A DNA stretch of 43,656 nt from positions 1 to 43,656 of the forward strand of contig QCLE01000015.1 of assembly GCA_003214815.1 (NCBI GenBank). Reading direction: 5' to 3'. This document shows positions 1 to 30,165 of the stretch, piece by piece. The stretch comes from Prochlorococcus sp. AG-412-J13. Its GTDB lineage: Bacteria; Cyanobacteriota; Cyanobacteriia; PCC-6307; Cyanobiaceae. The notes beneath the pieces are model-generated. The model ran no database searches. It saw only the letters and a list, made by a program, of their open reading frames with translations, and was not told the DNA's origin. Each line of letters opens with the position of its first letter. Position 1 is the first letter of the stretch. The position numbers were made by a program, and so were the translations under genes.

Positions 1-23
1 ACATTTATAAAAATCAAATTTAA

Positions 24-367
24 ATGAAAAAAATATTTTAATTGGTTTAATTGCTGGGCTTGCGATTGGTTATAAAGTCCTAAAAGACAAGAATGTTGGT
101 TATGTAATGTTTTCTGGTATGATTACAAATCCAGAACAAGCAAGTAAATACTTTGCAGCAGTAAATGATGTAGTTGTTAAAGATTTCTGAGCAAAGATAT
201 TAACAGTTGATTATGAAACAGATGTAATAGAGGGATATGCCCCACCGTTTGCTGTACTCGCACAATTTCCAAGCAAAAAAGCATCACAAGATCGCTATGA
301 AGGTGATTATCAAAATATTATTCCTTTAAGAAAAGGAGCTATAGATATAAACTTTAGAATAGTTTAG
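24..367 (+). pseudogene. Broken DUF1330-like small protein gene
   Basis: A coding relic of about 114 codons. The ATG at 24 is followed by MKKIF and then an early stop; adding one T in the T run near 36-40 would join it to the long frame, which begins LIGLIAGLAIGYKVL (a membrane-anchor-like stretch). The body reads GYVMFSGMITNPEQASKYFAAV, then a TGA at about 188, then EGYAPPFAVLAQFPSKKASQ before a final TAG. The order of a strand, a YFAAV helix, EGYAPP and a FPS.. segment followed by RY resembles DUF1330 (dimeric alpha-beta barrel) proteins. Two lesions (a probable 1-nt deletion and a nonsense codon) make it non-functional unless these are sequencing errors. The family call is from motif memory only. 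Confidence 0.55.
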
Positions 368-540
368 AGAAACAGATAAAAAATAAATCTATTTCTAGTG
401 ATACTGATCTACATGATTCAGCAAAGTGCGGCAAGGTATAGCAAATCCTCGCTCAAAGCTTGCTCAGTCTCATCTTTCGAAGTGTTGCTAATAAAAAAGA
501 GAGTCTGGGAAACTCATTAGTATGACTTGGTTTTTGTTGA

Positions 541-587
541 GTCAGGGCGACAGTATTCGAACCTGCCGCCAAATGCTCCCAAAACAC
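541..587 (-). repeat. 3' half of a tRNA-Pro(TGG), tRNA-derived repeat / integration scar
   Basis: Read on the minus strand, this begins in the anticodon arm (TTTGGGA loop, anticodon TGG), continues through a variable region and a T arm with GGTTCGAATA, and ends in an acceptor-like CGCCCTGAC. No tRNA-Pro 5' half (D arm, CGGGGTGTAG-like start) precedes it, and the T stem has a G-A mismatch, so it is not a working tRNA. A repeat of about 48 bp resembling the 3' end of tRNA-Pro has been described from Prochlorococcus genomic islands (from memory, called PRE1); the length and content here fit. Such 3' halves are the usual scar of tRNA-targeted integration. Confidence 0.65.
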
Positions 588-754
588 CCATACGATAAAT
601 TTAGACAGAAACCTTAAATACAAACTTTGGTATAACTTGTTAGTTAAAAGCTAGTATTTAAAATGAGTCTTAGGATTGTATCTAGTTTATACAAAGACTA
701 TCATAAATTTACAAATAATCGCTAAATAATTTTTCAAATTTTCTAATAAAAAAA
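588..754. other. Short AT-rich gap holding an ACAAATAATCGCT repeat
   Basis: No gene seen. It contains the 13-nt word ACAAATAATCGCT at 711-723, which recurs at 1636-1648 and, without its last two bases, at 772-782 inside the 3' end of the neighbouring methyltransferase gene. Confidence 0.5.
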
Positions 755-1510
755 TTAATTTTCTTTTGTATACAAATAATCGTGATGTGAGAGTTTCTTA
801 ATTAAGTAATATCCAGAATTTATAAGATAGTCGTTAATGGTTTTATAATCTGAAGTCTCTACAAGAATATTTTTTATATGCCCTTTCTCTAAGCTGGAAC
901 CTTCCAATATAGCGAGTTCATTGCCTTCAACATCTAAAGATAATAAATCAATATTTTTTATAGAATGCTTTTCAATTAAACTGTTAAGAGTTATTGCAGG
1001 TGCAAAAAAATTATAAACTTTATCTTTAGGTAATCCTAATAATTTTCTAATAGGTAATTTTCTAATAACTCCTTTTTCTGCATGTTCTCTATAACCTTTT
1101 TTTTGGTTTGTTTGTGTAGTAAATAAATTCCCAAAAATTAATTTTACAAATTCTTTTTTATAAGTTGGAGAAACTAATGCATAATTCTCTATGATATTTT
1201 GTTTGCTTCTGTAAATAAAGCATTTCTCATAAAGTGAAGGAGAAGCTTCAATGAGCATTCCTTTTGCCTTATATTTTTTTTCTAAGAAAAATGTATTACT
1301 TTGAGTAATTCCATCATTGGCCCCAACTTCTATATAAAAAGTTTTACTATTTAGTAAATCTGGCAAAAGGATAGAAATCTGTTTATCTAAATCATTTATT
1401 GATGTAAATGGATCGATAGATGATGATTGTTTTTTAAAAAATATTGAAAAATCATATAGTAAATCAGATATTTTTCGGGCACAAAAACTTATATTTTTTC
1501 TTATTCTCAT
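755..1510 (-). CDS. FkbM family SAM-dependent methyltransferase
   Basis: A 251-residue protein with the two marks of the FkbM (Methyltransf_21) family: the SAM-binding loop IEVGANDG at about residues 60-67, followed by an acidic strand end (MLIEASP), and the late motif LLSLDVEGNE at about residues 190-199. Family members O-methylate sugars or polyketides; in polysaccharide islands they are usually thought to methylate glycan hydroxyls. It starts at ATG; the N-terminal 50 residues are basic and not recognisable. It stands alone, about 400 nt from the next methyltransferase, and is not clearly in an operon. The substrate is unknown. The C-terminal DYLY sequence shares its DNA word with two noncoding copies nearby, which may be tails of lost relatives. 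Confidence 0.85.
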   Translation of the reverse strand: MRIRKNISFCARKISDLLYDFSIFFKKQSSSIDPFTSINDLDKQISILLPDLLNSKTFYIEVGANDGITQSNTFFLEKKYKAKGMLIEASPSLYEKCFIYRSKQNIIENYALVSPTYKKEFVKLIFGNLFTTQTNQKKGYREHAEKGVIRKLPIRKLLGLPKDKVYNFFAPAITLNSLIEKHSIKNIDLLSLDVEGNELAILEGSSLEKGHIKNILVETSDYKTINDYLINSGYYLIKKLSHHDYLYTKEN

Positions 1511-1913
1511 AGAGTTATTTTTTATCTACTTATTTATTAGTTTAAATGTTAAAGAAAAAGTTGAAAAATAATTACTCGAAACTTAATAGGAATCTTTTAA
1601 TTAAAAATGATCTCTAATAGCCATAGTAAAGCCATACAAATAATCGCTATTTAATCGCTAAATGGAATATTGAGATTGCTGAGAAGTAAATCTGTGCAGA
1701 TCAGAAGTTATAAGATTATCTGAAAATATTGAGAGAATTTAGATCAATTTAAAAAATATTTTTTTATTAATTCTGGAAAGATTATCGGAGTATTAGGGAA
1801 ATAACATCCAATATTGCAAATTAGAGAAGAATTTAAGCTGATCGCACAGATAAAATATTTAAAAACTTAATACATATTGGAAAATTAATATTTAACTTTT
1901 AAATACAGAAATA
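1511..1913. other. Non-coding gap between two FkbM genes
   Basis: AT-rich, with stops in all frames that I followed. The word ACAAATAATCGCT (1636-1648) is followed closely by a second TTTAATCGCTAAAT. On the minus strand the word encodes SDYLY, as at the end of an FkbM protein, so this may be the remains of a third family member. Nothing else is recognisable. Confidence 0.4.
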
Positions 1914-2744
1914 TTAATTTTTGAAGTAAAGGAAATCAGCTTGTCCATCTGTTTTTAGTAATTGGTAATTATTGTTGATTAATATTTGATTAATATATGT
2001 AACCCTTTCAAAACTTCTTGCCGAAGGGATATTAAGTTCATCAAACTCGACCAAAATTTGTCTTGGTCTAAACCCTTTATTAAAGCAATCAACTAAAAAC
2101 TCTATTTCAGCTCCCTCTATATCAAGCTTAATGAGGGGAATATCATCTTTACTTAACTTCAGTTGATCCAATAATTTATCAATAGTAATAGAATCAACTT
2201 CAATAAAGTTTGTATCCTCCTTGTATTGATTTTGGTAATTAATTATTGAATGTGAAACATGTTCAGGGTTAGGGGGAGAATAAAATCTTAATTTCTCATT
2301 TTTATTCCATAATGCCTTTTGTAAAAGTATTAGATTTTCTTTTTTTAGATTTGTAAGATTATATGAATTTATTGGTTGTTTGCCACCTACTTCATATTCA
2401 GTTTCTGATGGATTACCAAGAGAATCAATTATTTCATAGTAGTGGTTTATGGCTCGCGGAGTTGGATCTACAAAAATTATTTTTGCATCATATTTTGAAG
2501 CAAATTCTATATCAAAGGAAGCATCCTCTCCCAAACCAGCACTTATTATTGTGCAATTCATTAAGCTTTCTTCGTCTACAAGAGTCCAGCCGCCATATTT
2601 AGTTCCTAGAAAAATTAAGTTATATCCCTTAGCCTCTTTAGCTTTTTGCAATGGGTGTTTATTTCTAAAAAAAGTCTTTATTTTTTGGAAAAAAGTTAAA
2701 AGCTTTACACTTTTGAGGAAATTTCTTAAAGAGTTTTTAAACAT
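1914..2744 (-). CDS. FkbM family SAM-dependent methyltransferase
   Basis: A 276-residue protein, distantly like the gene before it. The glycine-rich SAM loop is AGLGEDASFD (about residues 69-78), followed by the acidic strand end IIFVDPTP; the late family motif is LIKLDIEGAE at about residues 204-213, then QILVEFDEL. The protein ends QADFLYFKN, the family's usual closing block. The first 40 residues are basic and hydrophobic and may form a membrane-associated helix. It starts at ATG. It probably O-methylates a sugar in the surface glycan; the true acceptor cannot be read from the sequence. Ordinary low-GC codon use, no sign of damage. Confidence 0.85.
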   Translation of the reverse strand: MFKNSLRNFLKSVKLLTFFQKIKTFFRNKHPLQKAKEAKGYNLIFLGTKYGGWTLVDEESLMNCTIISAGLGEDASFDIEFASKYDAKIIFVDPTPRAINHYYEIIDSLGNPSETEYEVGGKQPINSYNLTNLKKENLILLQKALWNKNEKLRFYSPPNPEHVSHSIINYQNQYKEDTNFIEVDSITIDKLLDQLKLSKDDIPLIKLDIEGAEIEFLVDCFNKGFRPRQILVEFDELNIPSARSFERVTYINQILINNNYQLLKTDGQADFLYFKN

Positions 2745-4321: not shown

Positions 4322-4395
<74 letters not shown>

Positions 4396-11910: not shown

Positions 11911-12540
11911 TTGATAATTTTGAATTACAAAATTTTAAAGAGATTTTTAGATTTTTTATTCTCTTTTTTATTAATAATTTTCTTAATACCACTATTTATA
12001 ATTATTGGGATACTAATTAAAACAAGCTCAAAAGGTTCTATTATTTATATTCAAAAAAGGATGGGAAAGAATAATACAACTTTTTCTTGTTACAAATTTC
12101 GAACAATGTACCCGCAATCAAAATATCTTTTAAAAAAAATATTAATTACAAATCCAAATTTAAAAAATGAGTTTAAAAAAACGAGAAAAATGATTAATGA
12201 TCCAAGAATTACACCCATTGGCAAATTCCTCAGATTTTCAAGCTTAGACGAATTACCTCAAATATTTAATGTATTAATGGGAGATATGAGTTTTATAGGA
12301 CCAAGACCAATAGTAAAAAGCGAAATAAAAAAATATGGAAAAGATTTTGAAAAAGCATTCTCTGTTTGCCCAGGTATTTCAGGCCTGTGGCAAGTTAGTG
12401 GCAGAAATAATCTTTCTTATGAAAGAAGAATAGAATTAGATATGTTTTATTCAAAAAATATAAACTTTATTCTAGACATTAAAATTTTTATTAAAACCTT
12501 TAAAGTTATTCTATTTCCCCATGGAAAAGGAGCTTATTAA
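11911..12540 (+). CDS. Initiating sugar-phosphate transferase (bacterial sugar transferase, WbaP/WecP-like)
   Basis: A 209-residue monotopic enzyme of the bacterial sugar transferase family (PF02397). One hydrophobic N-terminal hairpin (about residues 8-33), then YKFRTM (about 59-64), the acidic block LDELPQIFNVLMGDM followed by FIGPRP (about 111-132), and the late CPGISGLWQVSGR motif. It moves a sugar-1-phosphate from a nucleotide sugar onto undecaprenyl phosphate, the first step of repeat-unit assembly. It is the short form without the extra N-terminal domain. There is no ATG; TTG at 11911 or 11920 is the likely start. Last gene of the first module; a second initiating enzyme lies at 35339. 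Confidence 0.88.
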   Translation: MIILNYKILKRFLDFLFSFLLIIFLIPLFIIIGILIKTSSKGSIIYIQKRMGKNNTTFSCYKFRTMYPQSKYLLKKILITNPNLKNEFKKTRKMINDPRITPIGKFLRFSSLDELPQIFNVLMGDMSFIGPRPIVKSEIKKYGKDFEKAFSVCPGISGLWQVSGRNNLSYERRIELDMFYSKNINFILDIKIFIKTFKVILFPHGKGAY

Positions 12541-12689: not shown

Positions 12690-14018
12690 AAAATGTCTTT
12701 TTTATTAAAAACATTTGATGCATTGGTTCAGATTTCGTAGGGGTACCCACTTTGGCATTAATGGCTAAAAAATGAAATAATTTATTTTTAATGTTGTTGA
12801 TATAAATAAGCAAAGAATAGCGGCATGGAATAAAAAAGATTTATCAAAATTACCTATTTTTGAGCCTGGTTTAAACGAAATAATAGAGAAAACTAGAAAT
12901 AACAATCTTTTTTCTCCTCCGAAATCGAAGATGCTATTGCATCGGCAGATCTAATATTTATTTCCGTAAATACTCCTACAAAAACAAAGGGTCTAGGTGT
13001 AGGCAAATCTAGTGATTTGAAATGGCTCTAGGCAAGTGCAAGACAAGTAACCAAATTTGCCACTGGTCAAAAAATAGTTGTAGAAAAAGTACATTGCCTG
13101 TAAGAACAGCTGAAGTAATAGAAAGCATTCTTAATTCAAATGACTCTAATTTAAATAGTGATAAAAAACTTTTAGTGTATTGTCCAATCCTGAGTTCCTT
13201 GCAAAGGGAACAGCTATAAATGACTTAGAAAATCCAGATAGAGTTTTAATTGGCGAAGAGAATAAATCAGCGATGCTTTTATTGAGTAAAATATATGAAA
13301 TTTGGGTACCAAAATAAATAATACTATTTACAAATATATGGAGCAGCAAACTTGCAAAACTTACTTCTAATGCTTTTTAGCCCAACGCATTAGTTAAATA
13401 AATGCTATAAGTGCTATATGTAAATTCACGGGTACCAATATTAGGGAAGTTTCAAGAGCAATTGGTAAAGATTCAATAATTGGATCAAAATTTATAGATT
13501 CAGGTCCAGGAGTTGGAGGAAGTTGTATATATCAATTCTTGGCATTAAAAAAGAATATCAAAAATAGTTTAAAAAACCTTTTGGGACTATATCTCAAACG
13601 AAAAATGATACAAGAGAATCTGCAACTATAGGAATTTGCAAAGATTTAATCGATGAAGGGACTGAACTTTTTATTCATGATCCTAAAGTCAATCCTTCAC
13701 AAATAGAGAACGATTTAGGAATGAAGTAATTTTCAAAAATTAAAAATGAAAATTTAGATTATTCAAATAATAATCTTGGTAATTGCACAGTCAGTGAGGA
13801 TCTTGCATTTTTGATGATGCGCACGACGTTTTAGTTCTAATAGAATGGGAAGATTATAAAACTATTGAATTGGATCAAGTTGCAGAAAAAATGATTAAGC
13901 CTGAATGGGTATTCCATTCAAGGTCCATAATTAATTTTGATTTAGTAAAAAAATCAGGGATAAATCTGTGGCATTTTGGGTTGGCGTTGAAAAAAAATAA
14001 AATAATAAATTTTTTAGT
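12690..14018 (+). pseudogene. Decayed UDP-glucose 6-dehydrogenase (second ugd copy)
   Basis: Broken pieces that align in order to the intact dehydrogenase at 21329: CIGSDFVGVPTLALMA, then after a frameshift [36 protein letters not shown] with a stop, [47 protein letters not shown] (the catalytic-cysteine block), NDTRESATIGICKDL, FIHDPKVNPSQI and finally KPEWVFHSRSII. Stops and frameshifts occur throughout, and the segment between the cysteine block and FGT is mostly deleted (roughly 40-50 codons). The TGC/TGT at the start has become TGA. It overlaps the end of manC on the other strand. A clear relic of an animal-type UDP-glucose dehydrogenase. Confidence 0.9.
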
Positions 14019-15474
14019 CTTTTTCTCTACCATATTTGTCTTCAAATCGTTTAATATCATCTTCACCAAGATAAGATCCACTTTGAATCTCTATTAATAT
14101 TAGAGGGTATTTTGTAGGATTAGATAACCTATGCTTAGTTCCTAAAGGTACATAAACACTTTCATTAGGTCCTATGATTTTTTCAAGATCACCTATTTCT
14201 ACTTTTGCAGTACCAGCTACAACGACCCAATGTTCAGATCTATGGAAATGCATTTGAAGAGATAAAGATGCTCCAGGATTAACTTCAATTTTTTTTATTT
14301 GCCAAGTACTTCTCTCTTCGATGGATAAAAAAGAACCCCATGGTCTATATACAACTTTATGATTTTGAGCCTCACTGAAACCTTTTTCATTCATTAAAGA
14401 GACTATGTTTTTTACTCCTTGAGAACTTTTACTATTTGCAACTAAAACGGCATCTTTTGTTTCAACTATAACAACATTCTCCAAATCAATACCTACTACT
14501 AATTTATCCTCACTAAGTATCAAAGAATCTTTAGTATCTTGCACTAATACCCTTCCATTCACAGAATTACCATTAAGATCTTTTTCAGATATTTTCCAGA
14601 GAGATTCCCAGTTCCCTAAATCATCCCAACCGCAATTAAGAGGTATTACAAATGCCTTTTTTGTTTTTTCAAATACTGCAATATCAATTGAAGTGTTTTC
14701 ACAATTTTTAAATGACTTTTCTTCCAATCTTAGGAAATCAAGATCAACTTTACTTTTGTCAAGACATTTTTTGCAATTTTTGAGTGTCTCTGGAGCAAAA
14801 TTTCTGATCTCATTAAGTATTGCAGCTGCCTTAAAAACAAACATTCCACTATTCCAGGAATATTTTTTATCCTTTACAAAATATTTAGCAGTTTTCTCAT
14901 CTGGTTTTTCTATAAATTTATCAACCCTACTAGGATTAAATTCATTAAGGTCAAGTTTTTTTTCAGATTTTATATATCCATAACCAGTTGAAGGATATGT
15001 GGGAGATACTCCAAAAATTATTAGATTATCTTTCGAAGATAATTCAATACTACTTTTAATAGCTGAGTGAAAATTATTAATATCTTTAATTTGCTGATCT
15101 GAAGAGAGTATTAAAAGTATAGGATCAATTTCAGTATTTTTATATATATCTAAAACTTTAAGAGCAGCGATTGTAATTGCAGGAGCAGTATTTCTACCTT
15201 CTGGCTCTAATAATATCTCTAGTGGTTCAATGTTTATTTCTTTCATTTGATGACCAACAATAAACCGATGTTCCTCATTACAGATAACTATAGGTCTGCT
15301 GATATTTTCTAAATTCTCAACTCTTTTATATGTTCTTTGAAGCATAGTATATTCATCATCTAACAAATTCAGAAATTGTTTTGGAAAACTCTTTCTTGAG
15401 AGCGGCCAAAGTCTTGAACCTGTTCCACCAGCTAAAATAATTGGAATAATTTTATAAATAATATTAGAACTCAT
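14014..15474 (-). CDS. manC: Mannose-1-phosphate guanylyltransferase / mannose-6-phosphate isomerase
   Basis: A 486-residue bifunctional enzyme. The N-terminal nucleotidyltransferase opens with LAGGTGSRLWPLSRKSFPKQ (residues about 15-34), the pyrophosphorylase signature; later are FIEKPDEKTA and WNSGMFVFKA. The C-terminal cupin isomerase part has YRPWGSFLSIEE, VNPGASLSLQMHFHRSEHWV (metal-binding histidines) and NESVYVPLGTKHRLSNP. It makes GDP-mannose from mannose-6-phosphate in the cytoplasm, feeding the mannosyltransferase-like genes. Usual family length, ATG start. It is preceded, 4 nt away, by a small unknown gene, so they are probably co-transcribed; its 3' end meets the dead ugd copy on the opposite strand. 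Confidence 0.95.
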   Translation of the reverse strand: MSSNIIYKIIPIILAGGTGSRLWPLSRKSFPKQFLNLLDDEYTMLQRTYKRVENLENISRPIVICNEEHRFIVGHQMKEINIEPLEILLEPEGRNTAPAITIAALKVLDIYKNTEIDPILLILSSDQQIKDINNFHSAIKSSIELSSKDNLIIFGVSPTYPSTGYGYIKSEKKLDLNEFNPSRVDKFIEKPDEKTAKYFVKDKKYSWNSGMFVFKAAAILNEIRNFAPETLKNCKKCLDKSKVDLDFLRLEEKSFKNCENTSIDIAVFEKTKKAFVIPLNCGWDDLGNWESLWKISEKDLNGNSVNGRVLVQDTKDSLILSEDKLVVGIDLENVVIVETKDAVLVANSKSSQGVKNIVSLMNEKGFSEAQNHKVVYRPWGSFLSIEERSTWQIKKIEVNPGASLSLQMHFHRSEHWVVVAGTAKVEIGDLEKIIGPNESVYVPLGTKHRLSNPTKYPLILIEIQSGSYLGEDDIKRFEDKYGREKD

Positions 15475-15478
15475 TATT

Positions 15479-15931
15479 CTAGGATGCTATATATTGAAAA
15501 CCTTTCTTTTTTAGTAAAGATTCTTTTTTAGCCTCATTAGAATCTTTTTCAATCATCGCAGCAAAAGGTTGATTTGGAATCATATTAAGATTCCCTTTTA
15601 ATTCTTTTCTAAATTTAGTCCAATCCTTTTTCAAAAGCTCAGCATCAGTTGGGCTAAAGTACGCAGGATCTTCGCCTAAAACATCGTCATCTTTATAAGT
15701 TATTTTACCTACTTCATATAAAACACTTTCCCCCAGGATAATAGCTTGACCTATCTCTTGCTTTTTACAACCAAGCTGTTTTGCACTTAGTTTTATGAAT
15801 TCTCGAACATAATCTAGTTGTCCATTAGCAAAAACATAATCAGAGAGCTTTGCTGTATAAAGCATAAGACATTGCTTACAAACAATATCTTTAGCATGCA
15901 CCCAAGCTCTTTTTTGATTAAGATTACTCAT
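15479..15931 (-). CDS. Unknown soluble protein, probably co-transcribed with manC
   Basis: A 150-residue protein from ATG at 15931 (a TTG six codons upstream is less likely). I do not recognise the family. It is soluble, with no signal or membrane helix. Visible features are KDIVCKQCLMLYTAKLSDYV near the N-terminus with a CxxC pair, a helical middle (AKQLGCKKQEIGQAIILGES), an acidic DDDVLGEDPAYFSPTDAELL segment and a charged tail ending KKGFQYIAS. The gap to manC is 4 nt, so it sits in the same transcript; just upstream a short frame ends with TAG immediately before its ATG. It may be a lineage-specific accessory protein. No function is proposed. Confidence 0.75.
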   Translation of the reverse strand: MSNLNQKRAWVHAKDIVCKQCLMLYTAKLSDYVFANGQLDYVREFIKLSAKQLGCKKQEIGQAIILGESVLYEVGKITYKDDDVLGEDPAYFSPTDAELLKKDWTKFRKELKGNLNMIPNQPFAAMIEKDSNEAKKESLLKKKGFQYIAS

Positions 15932-15932
15932 A

Positions 15933-16091
15933 CTAAATACATTTTTCAATAAGATAATTTATTCTTGAAAGCTCACTTTTTATTTTTCTATAAACAAAAG
16001 TTTCACCTCTGATAGGCATCTCTTTGTTGAAAATAATATCTTTATAAGCAAAAATAGCATATGTTTCTCTATAAATAATTGCTATACAATA
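15933..16091 (-). pseudogene. Truncated coding relic upstream of the unknown gene
   Basis: An open stretch on the minus strand reads CIAIIYRETYAIFAYKDIIF, NKEMPIRGETFVYRKIKSEL and SRINYLIEKCI before TAG. The composition looks like real protein, but there is a stop just before it and the only ATG is internal (giving 28 residues, MPIRGETF...). Its TAG lies 1 nt before the ATG of the next gene, as in a coupled pair. Either the 3' end of a lost gene or a very small one. Confidence 0.35.
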
Positions 16092-16296
16092 TTAATATAA
16101 TTTCACTAATGCATAATCCTTATAAGATGAAAAAGTGTTGATTCTTTTTAGGACCTCTTGTTCTAATAAGTTTAGTTCAATTGTAATTAAAAATATATTT
16201 TATTTTTTATTAGATTTAAATTTTTAAACTTCTTGAGAATCTTAAAGGGTTCAAATTTATTACAACTTGCTTTTATATTGAAGTTTCCAAAACTAA

Positions 16297-16530
16297 CTGC
16301 GAATTGACTCTGAAAATCCTAATTATGGATATCGTGAGGCTGAATCTTTTTATATAAGTTTATTAATTTTGAACTATAGATTTAAACTCCAGAATGAAGC
16401 AAAAACTTTGAAATACTTTAATGCGGTACTTAAAATAAATCATCAATCCTGGAAGTATTTAAAGATTTTAAATGTCTTTTTAAAGAAGAAACTTAATAAA
16501 CTTTTTCTAAATGTAATTTTTTACAGATAA
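16297..16530 (+). pseudogene. Fragment of a TPR-like protein
   Basis: A 77-codon open frame without a good start contains DSENPNYGYREAESFYISLL and ILNYRFKLQNEAKTLKYFNA followed by VLKINHQSW, the spacing of a tetratricopeptide repeat (N..EA..YF..AL.IN..SW). It is flanked by stops and AT-rich sequence. Probably the remains of a deleted gene. The TPR link is by eye only. Confidence 0.35.
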
Positions 16531-16622
16531 TTATCATATTGTCATGTAATAAATGAAGCTTTATTTTTGACTAAAATAAACTAAAAACTCTCATTTTTAG
16601 CTTATTAAAATATATTTAAGAC

Positions 16623-17675: not shown

Positions 17676-18708
17676 TATTCTTAATCTATGATTTAACTTT
17701 AGACTAAATTTATTCTTAACACATCAACTTTGTTACTATCAAGAACAAACAAAAGAAAATTATGTAAAGAAAGTAATATTTTTAGATCAACAAATTTTGA
17801 ATAATTTTTTTAAAACTTAAAAACCTTAAAATATCTTTAATAACTTTTTTAAAGATAAAGTTTTACAAAGCAAAATCAAAATTCTTGGATTCTATCCAAG
17901 AATATCTTTAGATATAGGGCTTATTAGTACCATAAAAAGCTATCAAGAAGAATATTATTCAAATTATTTTGAAGTCCTTTAAAAATCAAAAGAATATATC
18001 TAATTAGTATTAAAATATTTCTCTCCATTAATACCTTTGATCACCTATTTAAGTTGAATATATACTTATAAATGATTCTGTGATTACTTTAGAAAACCTG
18101 TTGATATACCTATAAACTATTTTTAATGATTACTAAATTACCTGCTAGTAGTAATGGATTTTTGGAGGTCCAGAGGAAGCATTCGAATAATATATAATTA
18201 TTTTTCTTAATATACTTATCTGATATTTTTTTATTTAATTAAATAAATTTTCCACAAGAGAATTTTACATTAGCCTAGTGAATTCATAATATTAGATAAA
18301 TTTCACTAAATTGGAATAAATATAGTTCCAAGACTTTCTATGCTCTCTGCAATTTTTAAACTTGAAAAATTCAAATATAGAAAAGAAAGTAGTGATTTGG
18401 GTATTTTACAGTAATCCCTCTCTAAGGATAATTAGACAAATAGATTTTCTGATCTATTTTTTTGCGAAAATACTAACCTAAAGGAATAGCATTCTTAAGA
18501 TGACTCGTTTTAAAATAAATTTTTCTTCAAAAGTGCGTTATTTTTAAAATAAGCTTATGTTTCTTTGATACTTTAAATAATAAGCTACTTCAATTAATTT
18601 TTCATAGCAATGTATTAGTAAGAACGAATAAATCAATGCAGGGTTTATTATCTAAATCTGCATTTTGTATACTATTAAATTCTTTTAAAAAGTTAAGTAA
18701 ATATTTAA
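17676..18708. other. One-kb gap with a perfect hairpin and no gene
   Basis: Stops in all frames. At 17881-17903 there is a perfect hairpin with 10-bp arms ATTCTTGGAT and ATCCAAGAAT around a TCT loop; no T run follows, so it is not a typical terminator. Plus-strand words after it (FYPRISLDIG, EEYYSNYFE) faintly recall Wza-type repeat units, but too weakly to call. The rest looks like eroded DNA. Confidence 0.45.
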
Positions 18709-20793
18709 TCAATCATTAAAACTTTTAATTATTTCTGTGGTTGAATAAATTCCAATAAATGGTGCTGTAACTTCTCCTATAACGCCTGTTGCTCTTCCTA
18801 ATAAACTATTTCTCACAGATATTAAATCACCTTGTTGTATGTAAGGATTCCTTTTTGAACCTCTTTTTGCCTTAGCTGAATATGAAATATTTTTCTTAAA
18901 AATTGTCCCATCTTTGTTGTATCTTAACAAAATAATCTTTCCTGATAGAGGTCTTATTGGTCCAGTAAGGTCAATGGCATCTGATAATGTAGATTCTAGT
19001 GGTAATGATACATTTCCAGGATTTTCAACTCGACCAAAAATATCAACTGTTATAAATCTTGGAGAAATACCATTAAGGATAGATTTTGGGATGATATCTG
19101 AGGAAGCTGTAGCTAACTCTGGTAAAAATATTCTATCTCCATCAAATAATCTAATATCATTAGTAGGATCGTTGTCATTTAAAAAAGATGTAAAGTCAAT
19201 AATTGCCCTTTTTTTCCCTCCTCCTTTTCCAATAGGCACGTCTCTTATAATTTCGATCCTTGACAGGTCAGTTTTGGAAGTTATTCCACCTGCTTTTCTA
19301 ATTACATTAGAAATGGTAGTGAAATTTTCAGATGGTCTTTTTATTTGAAAGTTTGATTTATTGATCGTATTATTTATAAAGGTATTATCCAGATTTTTAT
19401 TTTGAAAATTATCTTGATAGTTAACAATCAAATCTTTGTTTATTTCTTGAATTGAGTTTTCCTTTATCTTGTTTCGATCGATCATTTTATTTTCTTTATT
19501 TAATATACTTTGATTCCTTTCAAATAAAGTTTTTTCTTTTCCCTCTTTATCAACATCATCTATTATACTTTTAAAGTCCATAACAGAATAAGCTGGGAAA
19601 TTGTAAATACCTGGTACTCTTACCTCCCCACTAACTAGTATCCTCAGTTTTTTAAATGTTGCTATTTTAATAGTCGTTTTAGCATTAATATTAAATTCAG
19701 AGTACTTTCTTTGGATAATTTGAGAGAGCTCACTAGGTGTTAATCCTCTTACATAAGTCTCTTTTATTTTGGGAAGAAAAATTTCACCTTCTAGATCAAC
19801 ATTATAAATTCCTGATCCTATAAATTTAAATTTGCTGACCTTGATTTCAACATCAGTGAAAAGACCAAATTCCCTATATTTTTCTTCCAAAAGTTTTTCC
19901 AGTTCTTTTATTTTTAAACCTTTTACATATAAATTTTCGGCTTCCGGAACAAAGATTTCTCCTAACTTACTAATTCTATAATCCCCAGAATCAATAAATC
20001 TATATTTAACAATTCTAACTTCAATTTCGGGATCTATTAAAAATTCTGTATAACGTTCTTTTAATAATTTTGTGAGTTGATAAATTGTTAAACCTCTTAT
20101 GTATGTATCTTTAATTCGTGGAAGATAAACTTCTCCTAATTTATCTAATGTTACCGTCTTATTAAGCTCTGGTGTCTTTTCAAATTGTATAAAAATACTA
20201 TCTCCTTCATCCAGAAGATAGTTTTGAAGATTACTTATTTGCGCTAAGTAGGCAGTATCGAGAGGTTTGTTTTTAGTAACTTTTTTCAGTAATTCAGGAT
20301 CTCCTTTTGGAATATTTTTAAATTCGATATTTATAACATCCCCTTCATCTAATATGTAGTTACTAAGATCATTTTTTGGTTCTAAGTAAGATACATTTTT
20401 TGGGCCAATTTCATTTTTATTTTCTTGATTCAAAGAATTTAAGCCTCTTGGCGCATTTTCGAATTCGATATATAAAGCATCACCAGTATCAATAATGTAA
20501 TCTTCTAAATCTTTTTTAGACTTGATATAGTCAACGCTGAGCTTTTTTATATTTTTAATATTTAATTTTTCTGATTCCAAATCAAAATCTAGTTTCTCCA
20601 GTGTACTTTTTGAATTTAAATTATCTATTGCAATTTTAGCCTTATTATTAGCAATTGAATTATTACTTTCTGCTTTAGTCAAATCAAAAATACAAAAAGA
20701 AATCAAAAAACAAGTCATTAAAAAATTTCTTGAATTCCTTTTAAAGGAAAATAATTTTATAAATTTATTCTCAAAAACTTTTTCTAAACTCAA
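18709..20793 (-). CDS. Wza-like polysaccharide export protein with tripled internal repeats
   Basis: A 694-residue outer-membrane exporter with SLBB domains. A hydrophobic signal-like segment lies at about residues 22-42 (LMTCFLISFCIFDLTKA). Three copies of a Y-(I/L)-(I/L)-D-(E/T)-GD...F unit follow at about 99-111, 146-158 and 192-204, then three copies of a longer unit (G-E-(V/I)-(Y/F)-(L/V)-P...(Y/V)-(V/I)-(R/K)-GLT/K...) at about 220-266, 278-324 and 337-382, ending in LRILVSGEVRVPGIYNFP, an SLBB start. A second SLBB begins near 581 (ITVDIFGRVENPGNV). It likely forms the export channel for the capsule or EPS. The start is TTG with AGG five bases upstream. A ruined relative lies at 26575. 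Confidence 0.85.
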   Translation of the reverse strand: MSLEKVFENKFIKLFSFKRNSRNFLMTCFLISFCIFDLTKAESNNSIANNKAKIAIDNLNSKSTLEKLDFDLESEKLNIKNIKKLSVDYIKSKKDLEDYIIDTGDALYIEFENAPRGLNSLNQENKNEIGPKNVSYLEPKNDLSNYILDEGDVINIEFKNIPKGDPELLKKVTKNKPLDTAYLAQISNLQNYLLDEGDSIFIQFEKTPELNKTVTLDKLGEVYLPRIKDTYIRGLTIYQLTKLLKERYTEFLIDPEIEVRIVKYRFIDSGDYRISKLGEIFVPEAENLYVKGLKIKELEKLLEEKYREFGLFTDVEIKVSKFKFIGSGIYNVDLEGEIFLPKIKETYVRGLTPSELSQIIQRKYSEFNINAKTTIKIATFKKLRILVSGEVRVPGIYNFPAYSVMDFKSIIDDVDKEGKEKTLFERNQSILNKENKMIDRNKIKENSIQEINKDLIVNYQDNFQNKNLDNTFINNTINKSNFQIKRPSENFTTISNVIRKAGGITSKTDLSRIEIIRDVPIGKGGGKKRAIIDFTSFLNDNDPTNDIRLFDGDRIFLPELATASSDIIPKSILNGISPRFITVDIFGRVENPGNVSLPLESTLSDAIDLTGPIRPLSGKIILLRYNKDGTIFKKNISYSAKAKRGSKRNPYIQQGDLISVRNSLLGRATGVIGEVTAPFIGIYSTTEIIKSFND

Positions 20794-21328: not shown

Positions 21329-22750
21329 ATGAAATTCAAAATAAAAAGTATTTGTTGTATCGGAGCGGGATATGTCGGAGGACCAACTATGTCAGTAATA
21401 GCAGATAGATGTCCCGATATTAAAGTCAATGTAGTTGATATAAATTTAGAAAGAATAAATGCATGGAATAGTAAAAATCTCGAAGATTTGCCAATATATG
21501 AACCAGGATTGAAAGAAATTGTTAGTAGATGCAGGGGAAGAAATTTATATTTCTCAACTGATTTAGAAAACAATATTAAAAATGCGGATATGATTTTTAT
21601 ATCTGTTAATACACCCACTAAGACAAAAGGGGTTGGGGCTGGTATGGCAAGCGATTTAAAATGGGTTGAGGCTTCAGCGAGACAAGTTGCGACTTACTCA
21701 TCTAACCATACGATAGTTGTTGAGAAAAGTACTCTACCAGTGAGAACAGCAGAAGTGATTAAAAAAATACTTTTCTCTGTTGAATCAAACTCTAAGGCTG
21801 ATAGAAAGAGTTTTGAGGTGTTATCTAACCCTGAATTCTTAGCTGAAGGAACTGCAATTAATGATTTAGAGAAACCTGATAGGGTCCTTATTGGTGGAGA
21901 GAGTAAAGAGGCTATGGATGCATTAACTAGAATTTATTTAAATTGGGTTCCTAAAAATAAAATTCTTCATACAAATATCTGGAGCAGTGAGCTTGCTAAA
22001 TTGACTGCAAACGCCTTTTTAGCGCAAAGGATAAGTTCAATAAACTCTATCGCGGCTATTTGTGAAGCTACTGGAGCTGAAGTAAAAGAAGTATCAAGAG
22101 CTATTGGGACTGATAATAGAATTGGATCCAAATTTTTAAATTCTGGACCTGGATTTGGAGGAAGCTGTTTTAAAAAAGATATTTTAAATTTAGTTTATTT
22201 GTCAAAATATTTTGGATTAGAAGAAGTCTCAGTTTTTTGGGAAAGTGTCGTTAAACTAAATAATTGGCATCAGCATAGAATTTCAAAACTAATTGTAACA
22301 AGTCTATTTGGTACAGTTACTGGAAAAAAAATTTGTATTTTAGGTTTTGCTTTTAAAGCAGATACAAATGATACAAGAGAATCTTCAGCGATTAATATAT
22401 GCAAAGATTTACTTGATGAGGGAGCAATATTATTTATTAATGACCCAAAAGTAAATTCTGATCAAATTGCTAAAGATCTAGGTTTATTAGAAACAGATAT
22501 TCTTAATTTAGATGAAGGAAACTGGTATTTTGCAGAAAATATGGATATAGGTTTTGATAATGCAGATGCAGTAGTTATTCTGACTGAATGGGATGAGTAT
22601 TCAAAAATAAACTGGAAAGAAGTATCAAAAAAAATGCGCAAACCTGGTTGGGTTTTTGATTCAAGATCAATAATTTCAGATAAAAGCTTAAATGGTTCAG
22701 AGTTGAATTTATGGAGAATTGGGGGTGGATCTAAAATAAAAAATTATTAA
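21329..22750 (+). CDS. ugd: UDP-glucose 6-dehydrogenase, animal-type
   Basis: A 473-residue NAD-dependent enzyme that oxidises UDP-glucose to UDP-glucuronate. NAD binding GAGYVGGPT (12-20); [74 protein letters not shown]; the catalytic block [12 protein letters not shown] with Cys280; [16 protein letters not shown] near the C-terminal domain. These segments and the length (about 470 rather than 390-440) match the animal UGDH subfamily rather than the common bacterial Ugd/TuaD. Product UDP-GlcA is the substrate of the 4-epimerase-like gene facing it at 23062. ATG start. A decayed homologue lies at 12690. Confidence 0.95.
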
Positions 22751-24244: not shown

Positions 24245-26179
24245 TTAGGCTATATATCTTTGCCATTCAGGAACTAGTTTTTTCATAGTCAACAATGTAT
24301 TTTCTTTGTCCATGTTCATAATGTATTCTCTTAATTTATTTATTTCGGGGAATAATATATTAGGTTCTATACTCTTTTCAGTTGCTTTATAAATTAAATT
24401 ATGCAATGTTTTCTGAGAAGTAGAATCAATCAGTAATTCCTCGAAAAGTTTTTCTCCAGGCCTTAATCCAGTTTGAATTATTTCTATGTCTCCATTAGGA
24501 TTGTTTTTATCTTTAACTCTTAAACCACTAAAAAATATCATTTTTTTTGCTAATTCATAAATAAGTATTGGACTGCCCATGTCAAGTAAAAACACTTCAC
24601 CACCTTTTGACAAAGATGATGATTGAATTACTAATTGAGCTGCTTCTTCAATTGTCATAAAATATCTATTTATTTTAAAGTCTGTAATAGTAATTGGTCC
24701 GCCTTCAGCAATCTGCTTTTTAAATAGAGGCACAACTGAACCAGATGAACCAAGTACGTTCCCAAATCTAACCATAGAGAAAATTGTTTTGATGAATTTT
24801 TCAGGGTTATTTTTATTCTTATTAACTGTATCTTTAGAAAAAGCCTGAACTATTAATTCTGCAAGTCTTTTGGAAGCTCCCATTATATTTGTTGGACGTA
24901 CGCATTTATCAGTAGATATGAATACTAATTTCTCTAAATTTACTTTTTGAGCGGCAAGACATATATTGTAAGTAGAAAATACATTATTAAATATTCCCTC
25001 TAAAGGATTATTTTCTACAATTGGGACATGTTTATATGCCGCCGCGTGAAAAATTACATCAATATTATATTGGACAAATATTTTCTCAAGAAAAAATAAA
25101 TTACAAGCATCTCCTAATAAAGCCTCAAAATGTAATTTTTTATCATTTAAATTTATTATTTTTGCATTTAAATTATATAAATTTTCTTCATTTCTCTCTA
25201 TGAGTATTAATGATTTAATGTTGAATTTTAAAAGTTGCAAACATATTTCCGTTCCAATTGAGCCACCTGCTCCGATTACGCAAATAACCTTTCCAACCAA
25301 ATTAGTTCCAAATAAATTTGGATAGACTGGAACTATTTGTCTCCCTAATAGTTGTTCGATTGATATTGGTCTTAGATTATTTATGGTAGCTTGTCCAGAA
25401 GTAATCTCCTCAATGGATGGAATTTGAAGAACCGGTATATTGTAGTATTCTAAAGATTTAAGTAAGGTTTTTCTTTTAGGTATACTTAACGAAGGAATTG
25501 CCACAAGAATTTGATCGACTTTGATATTCAAATCCTTTAATGAACTAGGTGAAATAATATTAATACCGTTTAATGACCTACCCCACTTGATAGGTGCATC
25601 ATCAATAAATGTACATATGCTGTGTGAATTTGACTTTTCTATAGTCATGGCGAGGGCAGATCCCGCAGACCCAGCTCCATAAATAGCTACAACAGGCAGC
25701 CCATTTTTATAGCTTGATGAATATATTTTCACTGCTTTGCTGAAAATTAACCTAACAGCACCCACTCCAAAAGATAAAATTAGCCAGAAACTTAACCAAT
25801 AAGCATTTGATAAAGTAATTCCAAACCCTAATCTATTTATTAAATAGATGAAAAGAGCAGCTATTAAACTTTTCAGCGATGATTTATAAATAGATAATCC
25901 GCTTGTATATCTAACAATTTGTTTATATTGTTTTAAAAAAATAAATATTATTATTCCCAGAGTTGAAGTTAAGGGTATTATGAAAATATTTGAGGAGAAT
26001 AGGCTAATAAAATTGGGATAAACTATAAAAATAGTTATTAGTGAAGATAGGAAAAAAACTATTATATCCGTACATATAATTAAGATTTTTTTGTATTTTA
26101 AATCTAACTCTAATAGTCTTGAGAGTTGTTTGCCTATTTTAAAAAATATTTCTTTTTTAAATTTGGACAGTAAAACCAT
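24245..26179 (-). CDS. Membrane-bound NDP-sugar 4,6-dehydratase (CapD/WbpM-like)
   Basis: A 644-residue protein. About four membrane segments in residues 28-150, then a first nucleotide-binding fold (VAIYGAGSAGSALAMTIE, about 163-180) with a CoA-binding-like shape, then the catalytic Rossmann domain: VICVIGAGGSIGTEICLQLL (about 297-316), HAAAYKHVPIVE, FISTDKCVRPTNIMGASKRL and FGNVLGSSGSVVPLF. In the long WbpM/CapD group the usual catalytic Tyr is replaced by Met in NVMGATK; the NIMGASK here fits. Such enzymes make UDP-4-keto-6-deoxy-GlcNAc at the inner face of the membrane, the first step to many rare amino sugars. It may supply the DegT aminotransferase at 38903. ATG start. Confidence 0.9.
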   Translation of the reverse strand: MVLLSKFKKEIFFKIGKQLSRLLELDLKYKKILIICTDIIVFFLSSLITIFIVYPNFISLFSSNIFIIPLTSTLGIIIFIFLKQYKQIVRYTSGLSIYKSSLKSLIAALFIYLINRLGFGITLSNAYWLSFWLILSFGVGAVRLIFSKAVKIYSSSYKNGLPVVAIYGAGSAGSALAMTIEKSNSHSICTFIDDAPIKWGRSLNGINIISPSSLKDLNIKVDQILVAIPSLSIPKRKTLLKSLEYYNIPVLQIPSIEEITSGQATINNLRPISIEQLLGRQIVPVYPNLFGTNLVGKVICVIGAGGSIGTEICLQLLKFNIKSLILIERNEENLYNLNAKIINLNDKKLHFEALLGDACNLFFLEKIFVQYNIDVIFHAAAYKHVPIVENNPLEGIFNNVFSTYNICLAAQKVNLEKLVFISTDKCVRPTNIMGASKRLAELIVQAFSKDTVNKNKNNPEKFIKTIFSMVRFGNVLGSSGSVVPLFKKQIAEGGPITITDFKINRYFMTIEEAAQLVIQSSSLSKGGEVFLLDMGSPILIYELAKKMIFFSGLRVKDKNNPNGDIEIIQTGLRPGEKLFEELLIDSTSQKTLHNLIYKATEKSIEPNILFPEINKLREYIMNMDKENTLLTMKKLVPEWQRYIA

Positions 26180-26574
26180 TTAAAAATCTTTAAATTTGTT
26201 TTTCATTAGCTTTCATTTTAATGAATAAACTCTATTTAAATATATGATTATAAGCTTTTTAATATATTAATAGATGAAATTTCATAACACAATATTAAAT
26301 TAACTTTAAATTAAGAATTTTTTTCTAAGTAACAAAATAGTTAATTTTTAAATAAAAAAACTCTTTTTAATCTCTTAGGTTATAGAAATATTGTTTGCAG
26401 AAGTTAAAGGAAAAGACAAATTAAAATTCTTTGAAATTAATTTATATCCTTAAAAATTAGGACTCTTATCTAAATAATATTTAATTCAAGTACTAAATCA
26501 GAAAATGTATTTTAAAGAAGATTATAATTATTTTGATATTTCATAGCATGAATCAAAAAAGGAGGAGAGAGAAA
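26180..26574. other. Gap ahead of the dead export gene
   Basis: About 400 nt of AT-rich DNA with stops in all frames that I followed. Probably the eroded 5' part of the pseudogene that follows plus the promoter side of the dehydratase gene. Nothing else recognisable. Confidence 0.35.
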
Positions 26575-27976
26575 ATATAGTTGATTCTGGATATTTATAT
26601 AAATATAAAATTAAAAAAAAACAACAAGCAAATTACTTGTTGAATGAAATTAATAGAAACTAATATCTTTTATTGAGAACCAAGGAAATGTTTAAAAAAA
26701 TTATATATTGGATAAGGGTGATTATTCTGTATCTATTAAAATTTCTAAGACTCCCGAATTATCTGAAAATAATGCTATAAAAAATGATTGGGAAATACTT
26801 CTTCAATGAAAAAAAAAGACTTTAGAAAGAGGTTTTACTAGAAGAGAACTTGAGAAATTACTTGATGAAGTTTTTAGACTACATAATCAAACCTGAAATA
26901 TAAATTTCTATCTTTAGATTTAACTTTTTGACTAATGGTAAGTGTAAATATGCTTTAAATGAGGAGGTTTAAATAATCGTTCCTAATTTTTCTGCGGATC
27001 AGAAAGAAGAAACCAGAAAAATATTTGTAAGAGGATTAACTTTATATGAAATTAGTAAGCCTGCTCGAGAATATTATTCAAATCACTTTAACAATGCAGA
27101 AGTTTTATTGATATATAAATATTTAAGCTAATAAGAATTTCTATTACTAGCGAATTAAAAGATCGAGGAATATATAATTTTCCCGCTTATCAAAGAGCTA
27201 ATTTTTAATATTTTCAAACAGGAAAAAGTATGATTTAAAGTGAAAAATTATTTTGGTAAAAACAAAGATAAAAAACTATATTAAAAATAAATTTACAGAA
27301 ACAGAATTATTAGAAGTATAAAGTAATAATCCCGTTAAAAAAATTCTCTAACTAACTTAATTGAATTCCTCTCTCCTACTATTTAAATAACGATCATTTT
27401 CAAAGCTAAAAATAAAGCAGGAAAACTAACAAGTTACAGGGATATATCAAAATTAAAATAACTAGAGATAAAACAATTAGTTTATTTGACAGAAATATAA
27501 ATTTTTATACTTATATTCTAAATTCTGAGCAATAAATTAATATCAGGATTAGGATTTATATGCCAAAACTGAAAACAAGGGTAATAATTTACCAAATTTA
27601 TATATTTGACTAGTTTTATTTCAAAAATTTAGTAATGTTTCTGTATTCTTATTTAGGTCAAATAAAAAATCCAAGGAAAGTGAGAATCGCTCTTGAAGTT
27701 TTTGTATCAGCTTAAATAAAACATATCTATCAATACCACGAGCTGACAAATATTTTTACTAGGTATAGTCCAAATGGAAGTGTTATCATGAAAACTATAA
27801 ATTATTATTCAAAAGCAAAAACTGGTTTCAATAAAAAACCTTTTTTTAGTAGATGGAGATTTTATCAGTTTAAATAGTAGCTTTTTCAGCAGAACAATAA
27901 ATAAAATTGGCGCCGTAAATGCCCATTTATTAGTATTTATGCCACAAAAGAGTTGATTAATGAGTTTAATGTTTAA
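26575..27976 (+). pseudogene. Decayed Wza-like export protein (second copy)
   Basis: Fragments in several frames line up in order with the intact exporter at 18709: VDSG.YLYKYKIKK and YILDKGDYSVSIKISKTPEL (the Y-x-x-D-x-GD repeats), ERGFTRRELEKLLDEVF, RIFVRGLTLYEISKPAREYY (the long repeat), ELKDRGIYNFPAYQRA (SLBB start), YLGQIKNPRKVRIALEVF (second SLBB), and near the end RYSPNGSVIMKTINYYSKAK followed by APFISIY-like and ATKELINEFNV stop. Many stops and frameshifts; clearly dead. The order and the tail ATKELINEFN against STTEIIKSFND of the intact copy show paralogy or a replaced orthologue. It lies on the plus strand just before the Wzc-like gene, the usual wza-wzc order. Confidence 0.88.
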
Positions 27977-28425
27977 ACTTTTAAAAAGATTTGAATTTCA
28001 AAAAAAGATTAAAAATTCTATAAATATTTTTGTTATAAAGGGATTTATAAAGAAATATTCTTAATAAATTTAACTTTAACGAATTTTAAAAACAGCGATT
28101 AATTTTTGATCTCTAAAACTATAAAAATTCAAGAAATAGAAATTTATTTTTTTATTATATCTAAAGAAATTATTTCAAAAATAACTATGTAATTAAGAGC
28201 AATCAAATAAAAAGTTACCTAAAAATTTCTTAATTATTAAATATCCATATTTAATAAATTCGATCAAGTAGAAGATTTAATTTCAACAGAATTTTTTATT
28301 ATCAAACTCCTATTTTAATATAAATTTATTTTTGTATATTATTTGGAAAAAAAAGAAAAAAAATCTCTCTCCATTTATTAAAATAAAATTGTATATAATG
28401 TTAAAATAAAAAGTAGTCAAATATA
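27977..28425. other. Gap before the chain-length gene
   Basis: AT-rich, no gene. A TATAAT at 28394-28399 lies 26 nt before the ATG of the Wzc-like gene and is the best -10 candidate, with no clear -35. Confidence 0.4.
28394..28399 (+). promoter_or_regulatory. Possible -10 box of the Wzc-like gene
   Basis: TATAAT 26 nt before the ATG; no matching -35. Weak in such AT-rich DNA. Confidence 0.3.
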
Positions 28426-30165
28426 ATGGAAACAAACTTTAACTCTCAAGAAAATGAAAGTTATAATGATAATGATATTAATTTAATTTATTTTTTTAAT
28501 AGACTAATCAGAAATAAGAATTTAATAGCCTTATTCACATTTATATCAATATTAATTGCAATAACCTCATATGCTTTAACAAAAAAAACATGGCAAGGTG
28601 AATTCCAAATTGTTTTATCATCTGAGAAAAATAATGTTTCTAGGATTCCTATAAATCTTCAACAATTATCCTCAATTAAAGGTAATAACATTAACAATAA
28701 ATTAAAAACACAGGTTGGCATCTTAAAAAGTCCCTCTGTTTTAATGCCTATTTTTCAATTCGTTAATGAAGAGAAAAGAAAACTCAGACCCCAAAAAGAT
28801 GAAGAGAAGAGAAAACTCAAACCTCAAAAAGATGAATTAAATTTTTCAGATTGGGAAAGAAGTCTAAAAATAAAACTAAAAAAAGGTACCTCTATATTAG
28901 ATATTAGCTATAAAGATCAAGATAGGGAAATTATAATTCCAGTATTGGAAAAAATGTCTAAAGCTTTCCAAGACTATAGTGGAAAAGATAAGTTTGAGGC
29001 AATTAGAATGGCAAAAAATTATTTGATTGAACAAAAAAATATTTATAAATTAAAAAGTGCTGATTCCATTAAACAAGCTCAGAAATTTGCAATATCTCAT
29101 GATCTATTAATAAACAATGAACTTAAAAATTCTTTAGATGTTGATAAATCAGAAAATTTTATAACTGAAAATTATAGGATACGTAATACTTCAATAGAAG
29201 GACTTAGAGTTAAGGTGGCTAATGAAATCAGGAATTTAAATGAACAGATAAAGAAAATTGAATCATTAGATAATGATGCTAATGAACTTCAATATATTGG
29301 TTCCACAATCCCAGCATTAGTTAAAGAAGGTCTACCTCAAAACTTAGAAAGATTAGAGAGTAATTTAGCAGAACTTAGAACAAGATATACAGAAAAAGAT
29401 AAGGATATACAATTTACAATTAAAAGAAGAAATCTTCTCATTGGTTATCTCAAAAAAAGAGCAATTGGGTATTTAAAAGCAGAAAGAAATTCGGCTGAAG
29501 CATTCATGAAATCCCTCATGAGACCAGAGGGTGTTGTTCTCAAATACAAAGAGTTAATGAGAGAAGCAAGTAGAGACGAGGCTACTTTAATATCTTTAGA
29601 AAATAAACTAAGAGAAATATTACTTGAAGAAGCAAAATATGAAGATCCCTGGGAGCTAATAACGAATCCTACATTAAAGGAAAATCCAATTGCACCAAGA
29701 TTAAGAAATTTTGGTATAGTTGGGCTAATTTCTGGTTCATTTTTAGGAATTGCTGCCTCAATTCTTTACGAAAGAAAAAAAGATATAATTTATGAAAAAG
29801 ATATTTTGAATAATTACTTTCCTAATGCGTTAATAGTAAATTTTGAGAAAAAACCTATTGATGAAAATGAAAAAAAATATTTAAATGAGATTATTAAGAA
29901 TTCAAAAAATATTATTTTCAATAGCCTATTGGAATTAATCGATAGAGAAATTGAATTTATTAAGTCTAAAATTAAGAAAGAATCTTTTGAAAAATTAGCT
30001 AAAGATAAAATAATTTTCACAACGGAATTATTAAAGAAAGAAAATAAAGATGACTTTAAATTTTTTGTAGTAAACATCAATCAAATAACTTATGCGGATT
30101 TAAATTTCTTCCTAAAGACGATTCAATTTAATAAGCATGAATTTAATGCCATACTATATATATAG
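28426..30165 (+). CDS. Wzc/Wzz-like polysaccharide chain-length protein
   Basis: A 579-residue inner-membrane protein. Membrane segment 1 at about 34-52 (LIALFTFISILIAITSYAL), a long periplasmic coiled-coil domain, and membrane segment 2 at about 427-448 (FGIVGLISGSFLGIAASILYE) preceded by NPIAPRLRN, the proline-rich pre-membrane motif of the family. The cytoplasmic tail (about 450-579) has the place of the tyrosine-kinase domain, but no Walker A (GKT/S) and no tyrosine cluster, so a kinase looks unlikely. At residues 115-136 is an 11-residue tandem duplication (EEKRKLRPQKD, then EEKRKLKPQKD). It probably sets glycan length with the Wza-like exporter. ATG start. It follows the dead wza copy. 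Confidence 0.85.
   Translation: METNFNSQENESYNDNDINLIYFFNRLIRNKNLIALFTFISILIAITSYALTKKTWQGEFQIVLSSEKNNVSRIPINLQQLSSIKGNNINNKLKTQVGILKSPSVLMPIFQFVNEEKRKLRPQKDEEKRKLKPQKDELNFSDWERSLKIKLKKGTSILDISYKDQDREIIIPVLEKMSKAFQDYSGKDKFEAIRMAKNYLIEQKNIYKLKSADSIKQAQKFAISHDLLINNELKNSLDVDKSENFITENYRIRNTSIEGLRVKVANEIRNLNEQIKKIESLDNDANELQYIGSTIPALVKEGLPQNLERLESNLAELRTRYTEKDKDIQFTIKRRNLLIGYLKKRAIGYLKAERNSAEAFMKSLMRPEGVVLKYKELMREASRDEATLISLENKLREILLEEAKYEDPWELITNPTLKENPIAPRLRNFGIVGLISGSFLGIAASILYERKKDIIYEKDILNNYFPNALIVNFEKKPIDENEKKYLNEIIKNSKNIIFNSLLELIDREIEFIKSKIKKESFEKLAKDKIIFTTELLKKENKDDFKFFVVNINQITYADLNFFLKTIQFNKHEFNAILYI
28768..28833 (+). repeat. 33-bp in-frame tandem duplication inside the Wzc-like gene
   Basis: Units 28768-28800 and 28801-28833 differ at only a few bases and encode the 11-residue unit EEKRKL(R/K)PQKD twice. 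The highly charged unit lies in the periplasmic part soon after the first membrane segment. A recent duplication that keeps the frame. Confidence 0.9.

Follow-up and report, generated by a model that had tools for sequence, protein, structure and literature searches.

A decayed OPX exporter gene upstream of wzc in a variable surface-polysaccharide island of Prochlorococcus

Operons of wza and wzc are known from capsule loci. For the exporters themselves, the Wza/OPX proteins, three classes are distinguished in the available part of PMC9603273; Poly_export and repeated SLBB are common to all of them. Genes for surface polysaccharides are also described from flexible genomic islands of the replacement type (PMC4033161, available part). 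A search of open-licence papers returned no title or abstract beginning on the locus described here.

The window (the entire stretch of DNA analysed, 43,656 nucleotides) is the whole of contig 15 of a draft Prochlorococcus genome (1.83 Mb, 58 contigs, 97.4% complete), and is an island of polysaccharide genes with a G+C content of 26.6%. A decayed OPX (Wza-family) gene, denoted relic A (26535..27976, + strand), sits between a divergent capD-like gene (24245..26179, − strand; Polysacc_synt_2 by Pfam) and a wzc-like PCP gene with a Wzz domain (28426..30165, + strand). As in the capsule operons, the OPX gene lies upstream of the PCP gene on the same strand; unlike in those operons, the OPX gene is dead, a 449 bp gap separates the two, no kinase domain was found in the PCP protein by Pfam at E 0.001, and the intact OPX gene (18709..20793, − strand) lies on the other strand, 5.7 kb from relic A. 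By the domains found, this intact gene resembles the Class 3 proteins in the available text of PMC9603273: it shares Poly_export and SLBB, neither Wza_C nor GfcC was matched by Pfam at E 0.001, and relic A aligns with the family over most of its length. The architectures in that text have one Poly_export domain, whereas two or three tandem repeats (PES) are found here; the terms 'tandem', 'two PES' and 'multiple PES' are absent from the text of the paper. The window resembles the replacement-type islands (PMC4033161, available part) in being a glycan-gene island of strongly varying composition, as seen across the 20 capD loci compared, and it departs from them in that the genes displaced here can still be read as relics next to their intact counterparts.

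The coding fraction is 0.77 in the window and higher, 0.90 and 0.91, in two stretches elsewhere in the genome, which locates the relics in the island. A phage origin of the window was considered and rejected, as no match was obtained among 50,697 phage records. Rfam at gathering thresholds identified a single tRNA in the window and nothing else; this tRNA-Arg (tct), at 4322-4395 within the island, is a possible integration landmark.

The original prediction had placed a decayed wza-like gene at 26575-27976, with fragments matching the intact exporter some 6 kb away. The gene is real, and its intact relative is the OPX gene at 18709-20793. A tblastn search of the window with the intact OPX protein yielded hits on the + strand at 26696-26869 and 27098-27970, in order and with in-frame stops, and a genome search with the same protein returned 26666-26875 (E 2.7e-5) and 27542-27970 (E 1.7e-8). 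We aligned the whole gap between capD and wzc (26180-28425) to four OPX proteins with a frameshift-tolerant local alignment written for the purpose. The scores were 415, 346, 418 and 121, against respective maxima of 55, 66, 66 and 54 in the same 100 dinucleotide shuffles. The reverse strand of the gap gave at most 49, and six unrelated window proteins gave 38-47 (35-56 on the reverse strand). We then scored a wider set, the 59 OPX proteins of more than 250 aa in the fetched loci, for which the shuffle maxima stem from the four test proteins. The best was a protein of the genome G070 (score 422), which aligns at 26535-27970 over its residues 89-574 of 575, with 172 of 457 aligned residues identical. 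The last frame terminates with a stop at 27976, the predicted end, and the start falls about 40 bases earlier than predicted, at 26535. Upstream, at 26180-26534, no trace of the first ~88 residues was detected (score in the shuffle range), and these residues are lost or unrecognisable.

The alignment to the G070 protein contains about 13 frameshifts and 14 stops, lesions so many and so spread out that relic A is not an assembly slip. Divergence from G070 at the three codon positions is 0.44/0.35/0.55 in relic A vs 0.29/0.20/0.40 in the intact gene. A Pfam scan of the read-through of relic A returned one Poly_export match (E 8.6e-5, 23.1 bits, under the curated cut-off of 28) and no SLBB match; the frameshift alignment covers two PES regions, the second being identified by that alignment. 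Relic A belongs to the OPX (Wza) family, with homology along its length including the SLBB part. At the DNA level, no long relative of relic A was found in 266 genomes of the genus, the best outside match being 111 bases (73%) within an OPX gene of G195. The other DNA matches are short, and many are to one A+T-rich stretch, 27244-27306, which matches many genomes of the genus at ~77% over ~61 bases and which we take for a fortuitous match to a single conserved place.

The intact OPX gene, the only one found in the draft genome, encodes 694 aa with three Poly_export stretches and SLBB (PF02563, 109.9 bits, three stretches; PF10531, 51.8; PF22461, 31.1; all over cut-off). The three PF02563 matches of the draft genome all fall within this one gene, and its nearest relatives are in G221 (74%) and G223 (68%). 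Its AlphaFold model is of low confidence (mean pLDDT 45.9, pTM 0.33), too poor to use. Of 266 genomes of the genus, 107 match a 575-aa OPX query at E 1e-20 or better. Pfam identified one Poly_export stretch in both ~410-aa proteins scanned and in the single wzc-linked protein scanned, two in both 575-aa proteins and three in both proteins of 692-694 aa. OPX proteins with one, two or three tandem Poly_export repeats are thus present in the genus, on a scan of two proteins per length class (window 18709-20793; L137:9090-10817; L162:9067-10311). At two sites where relatives have OPX genes, the window's genome has none (scores of 45-66, within the shuffle range).

Relic A fits OPX proteins with two PES repeats best. 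Six of the eight 575-578-aa OPX proteins, of which the two scanned by Pfam both have two PES, score 404-422 against relic A; those of G141 and G023 (the latter truncated) score 355 each, and the intact gene 346. The PES part of relic A scores 226-236 with seven of the eight (one truncated) and 159 with the eighth, that of G141, vs 191, 186 and 138 in the long group (G221, the intact gene and G223). The C-terminal part separates the candidates little (G070, 215; the one-PES G063 protein, 211; the intact gene, 194). Of 22 columns that discriminate two-PES from three-PES proteins, relic A matches the two-PES proteins at 5 and the three-PES proteins at 2. On shared columns, in an alignment that is poor in the repeats, relic A is 33-36% identical to seven 575-578-aa proteins and 30-31% to the three long ones, with 31% for the intact gene among these (bootstrap interval of the difference between groups, 1.0-5.8 points). 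On a slightly smaller set of columns from this alignment, mean identity to relic A is 32% for the one-PES group and 23% for the wzc-linked one.

A phylogeny had been proposed as the means of telling a duplicate of the intact gene from a replaced original. In a quick tree of 59 rows, relic A joined the G063 exporter (SH-aLRT 91) and was among the rows flagged as long branches. A careful tree built from 26 of the rows gave its end branch no supported place and did not put it with the G063 exporter; the branch measured 2.4 and 3.0 changes per column in the two trees, 3.0 being that of the careful tree. The best tree groups relic A with the two-PES clade (support 48/76). The tree-test groups were chosen after sight of earlier results and the p values are uncorrected: in the careful tree, a sister pairing of relic A and the intact OPX gene was rejected (p = 0.005, one of three tests), and placement in the three-PES clade (p 0.117) or in the wzc-linked subfamily (p 0.262) was not. 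AU tests on the 59-row tree rejected neither the three-PES (p 0.76) nor the two-PES placement (p 0.75), and each constrained tree scored better than the unconstrained one. Because two-PES proteins fit best, the intact gene has three repeats and the sister pairing is rejected, relic A is probably no recent copy of the intact OPX gene; its branch is very long.

Apart from the wzc-like gene, no gene of the Wzz family was found in the draft. With one intact OPX gene and one Wzz/PCP gene in the draft, the intact OPX gene is the only visible partner of wzc, provided the draft misses none. The original prediction described the position of the relic before wzc as the usual order and suggested that the two were an ancestral pair. 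The order does exist: among 29 other wzc loci, an OPX gene immediately precedes wzc on its strand in 11; in the remainder the OPX gene is downstream (n = 4), divergent (n = 1) or lacking within 600 bp (n = 13, one of them cut by a contig edge). Ten of the 11 upstream OPX genes are of another OPX subfamily, nine by the tree and the tenth, which is cut by a contig end, by its 72% identity to one of the other nine. In nine of these ten loci the gap to wzc is 3-8 bp, vs 449 bp for relic A. The exception is in G010, where an OPX gene near the best matches of relic A precedes wzc by 78 bp, the only such case among the 11. A hidden remnant of the usual wzc-linked subfamily was sought at 27977-28425 and not found. 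The wzc of the window is sister to that of G070 (support 100/99). In G070, one sister with a 67% complete genome, capD and wzc have the divergent arrangement of the window, 453 bp apart, and no OPX gene, whole or in traces, was found in this interval; the segment 27977-28425 has no clear counterpart upstream of the G070 wzc, with one inverted 70-base match. The one OPX gene found in G070 at E 1e-20 lies on a different contig, among neighbours common to several relatives. Pairs of the G010 type exist. Given the sister wzc, the subfamily of the other upstream genes and the width of the gap, an ancestral pair of relic A and wzc is no more than a possibility.

Three further relics, absent from the original prediction, were identified in the island: a second OPX relic, a dead ugd and a dead gmd. 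Relic B (18055..18449, − strand) preserves the C-terminal part of a further OPX gene; it shares its strand with the intact OPX gene and lies some 260 bp downstream. It scores 157 with one protein, vs a maximum of 56 in 200 shuffles, and 174 with the G063 protein (4 frameshifts, 4 stops). The ugd relic (12698..13980, + strand; 8 frameshifts, 7 stops) scores 1415 vs a maximum of 57 in 100 shuffles, and was found by tblastn also. It is closer to the ugd of G063 (317/431 residues, 74%) than to the intact ugd of the window (252/422, 60%). The intact UDP-glucose dehydrogenase gene (21329..22750, + strand) is divergent from the intact OPX gene and is the only intact full-length copy found in the draft genome, which otherwise holds pieces of the dead one. 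The relic of gmd, GDP-mannose 4,6-dehydratase (15477..16550, − strand; 6 frameshifts, 7 stops), scores 524, agrees with a protein of G075 at 151 of 359 residues, and was also detected by tblastn. A 156-aa open frame within it, 15479-15949, could pass for a gene.

The identities of wza, wzc, capD, ugd, gae and gmd are from the Pfam scan, and the remaining gene names in the window are assumed from their look; thus we take the sugar-transferase gene at 11911..12540 (+ strand) to be wbaP-like and the gene at 14014..15474 (− strand) to be manC-like. Both have their closest match in the same place in G063 (83% and 80%), the next-best matches among the fetched loci, which are not whole genomes, being 41% and 53%. 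In G063, wbaP, ugd and manC are all intact, and ugd lies between wbaP and manC, the position of the ugd relic in the window. G063 also has capD followed by a divergent OPX gene, as capD is followed by relic A. As regards the exporter this order (wbaP-ugd-manC-..-galE-capD-wza) is suggestive. We rejected relic A as a proven positional counterpart of the G063 exporter, since wbaP, manC and the ugd relic are the only parts specifically closest to G063; galE and capD of the window rank it 5 and 17 among the fetched loci, and the likeness in order beyond manC may be due to chance. The G063 order was not seen in 20 further capD loci, some of them cut by contig ends. The only intact OPX gene and the only intact ugd are adjacent and divergent, and the other copies of both are dead in the island. 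The pair is flanked by galE and gae, between which G003 has a single, different gene. Relic A has 27 lesions in 1436 bases and the ugd relic 15 in 1283, with no significant difference (p 0.16), so that one event and two are not distinguished by these counts. In L085 (G002), an OPX gene and ugd are divergent as in the window (1-2614); this OPX protein scores 79 against relic A and is 37% identical to the intact one, and the pairing may therefore recur with another exporter.

The original prediction held that the exporter was replaced while wzc was kept. We consider this, read as the displacement of the resident exporter by a paralogue within a mosaic island of surface-polysaccharide genes, the simplest and a probable explanation, with some reserve: relic A is a long-dead OPX exporter gene, and the retained wzc would now work with the three-PES exporter. 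Once the working OPX-ugd pair (18709-20793 and 21329-22750) was present, the resident copies would have become redundant; the resident OPX copies and ugd would then have decayed, and the single PCP gene would have been kept with the three-PES exporter as its new partner. The intact OPX gene as the only visible partner in the draft agrees with this account. We infer the order of events, the joint arrival of the OPX-ugd pair and the work of the intact OPX protein with this wzc. Another account, possible though we would not expect it, is that an OPX gene landed between capD and wzc and died there as never the main partner of wzc, which always used an unlinked OPX gene. The empty interval between capD and the sister wzc in G070, with its OPX gene on another contig, agrees with this, as do the 13 of 29 other wzc loci that have no OPX gene within 600 bp. 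Against it, the G010 gene akin to the best matches of relic A indicates that such pairs exist, and in G070, which is just 67% complete, a clean loss of the gene is also conceivable.

That relic A is a decayed duplicate of the present intact OPX gene is improbable. The two share a broad family and an island, and the three-PES clade as a whole was not rejected, but the pairing of these two alone was, relic A is less identical to the intact gene than to the seven 575-578-aa proteins in an alignment of poor quality in the repeats, and its score of 346 with the intact gene falls below the 422 reached elsewhere. We give very little credence to retention of the stretch for some other function, for instance as a leader or an RNA serving wzc: it has survived before wzc in a lineage known for small genomes, yet Rfam found only the one tRNA in the window, no long DNA relative was found across the 266 genomes, and the three other island relics show similar decay. 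Least credible of all is a sequencing or assembly error in an intact gene. The genome is a draft in 58 contigs, and a wrong join near the intact OPX gene is conceivable, but about 27 lesions are spread over the 1.4 kb of relic A and divergence is raised at all three codon positions. Displacement by a paralogue remains the account that we prefer.

The case is instructive but ordinary gene turnover, of a known kind, in a variable surface-sugar region. It catches the displaced genes of a cell-surface sugar island before they have become illegible, and this in a lineage noted for small genomes. It also suggests that an exporter and its chain-length partner can move, and persist, independently of each other. 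The series of one, two and three PES raises a testable question of the fit between exporter and Wzc. More speculatively, and in our view unlikely, a two-PES exporter would have been swapped for a three-PES one under a constant Wzc; exporters of the genus vary in the number of stacked PES (one, two or three), and this number would determine how long the periplasmic channel is and would be a trait under selection. A mirror case, a dead PCP gene, was observed in G010, where a decayed wzc lies at C8:24005-24610 with ten stops.
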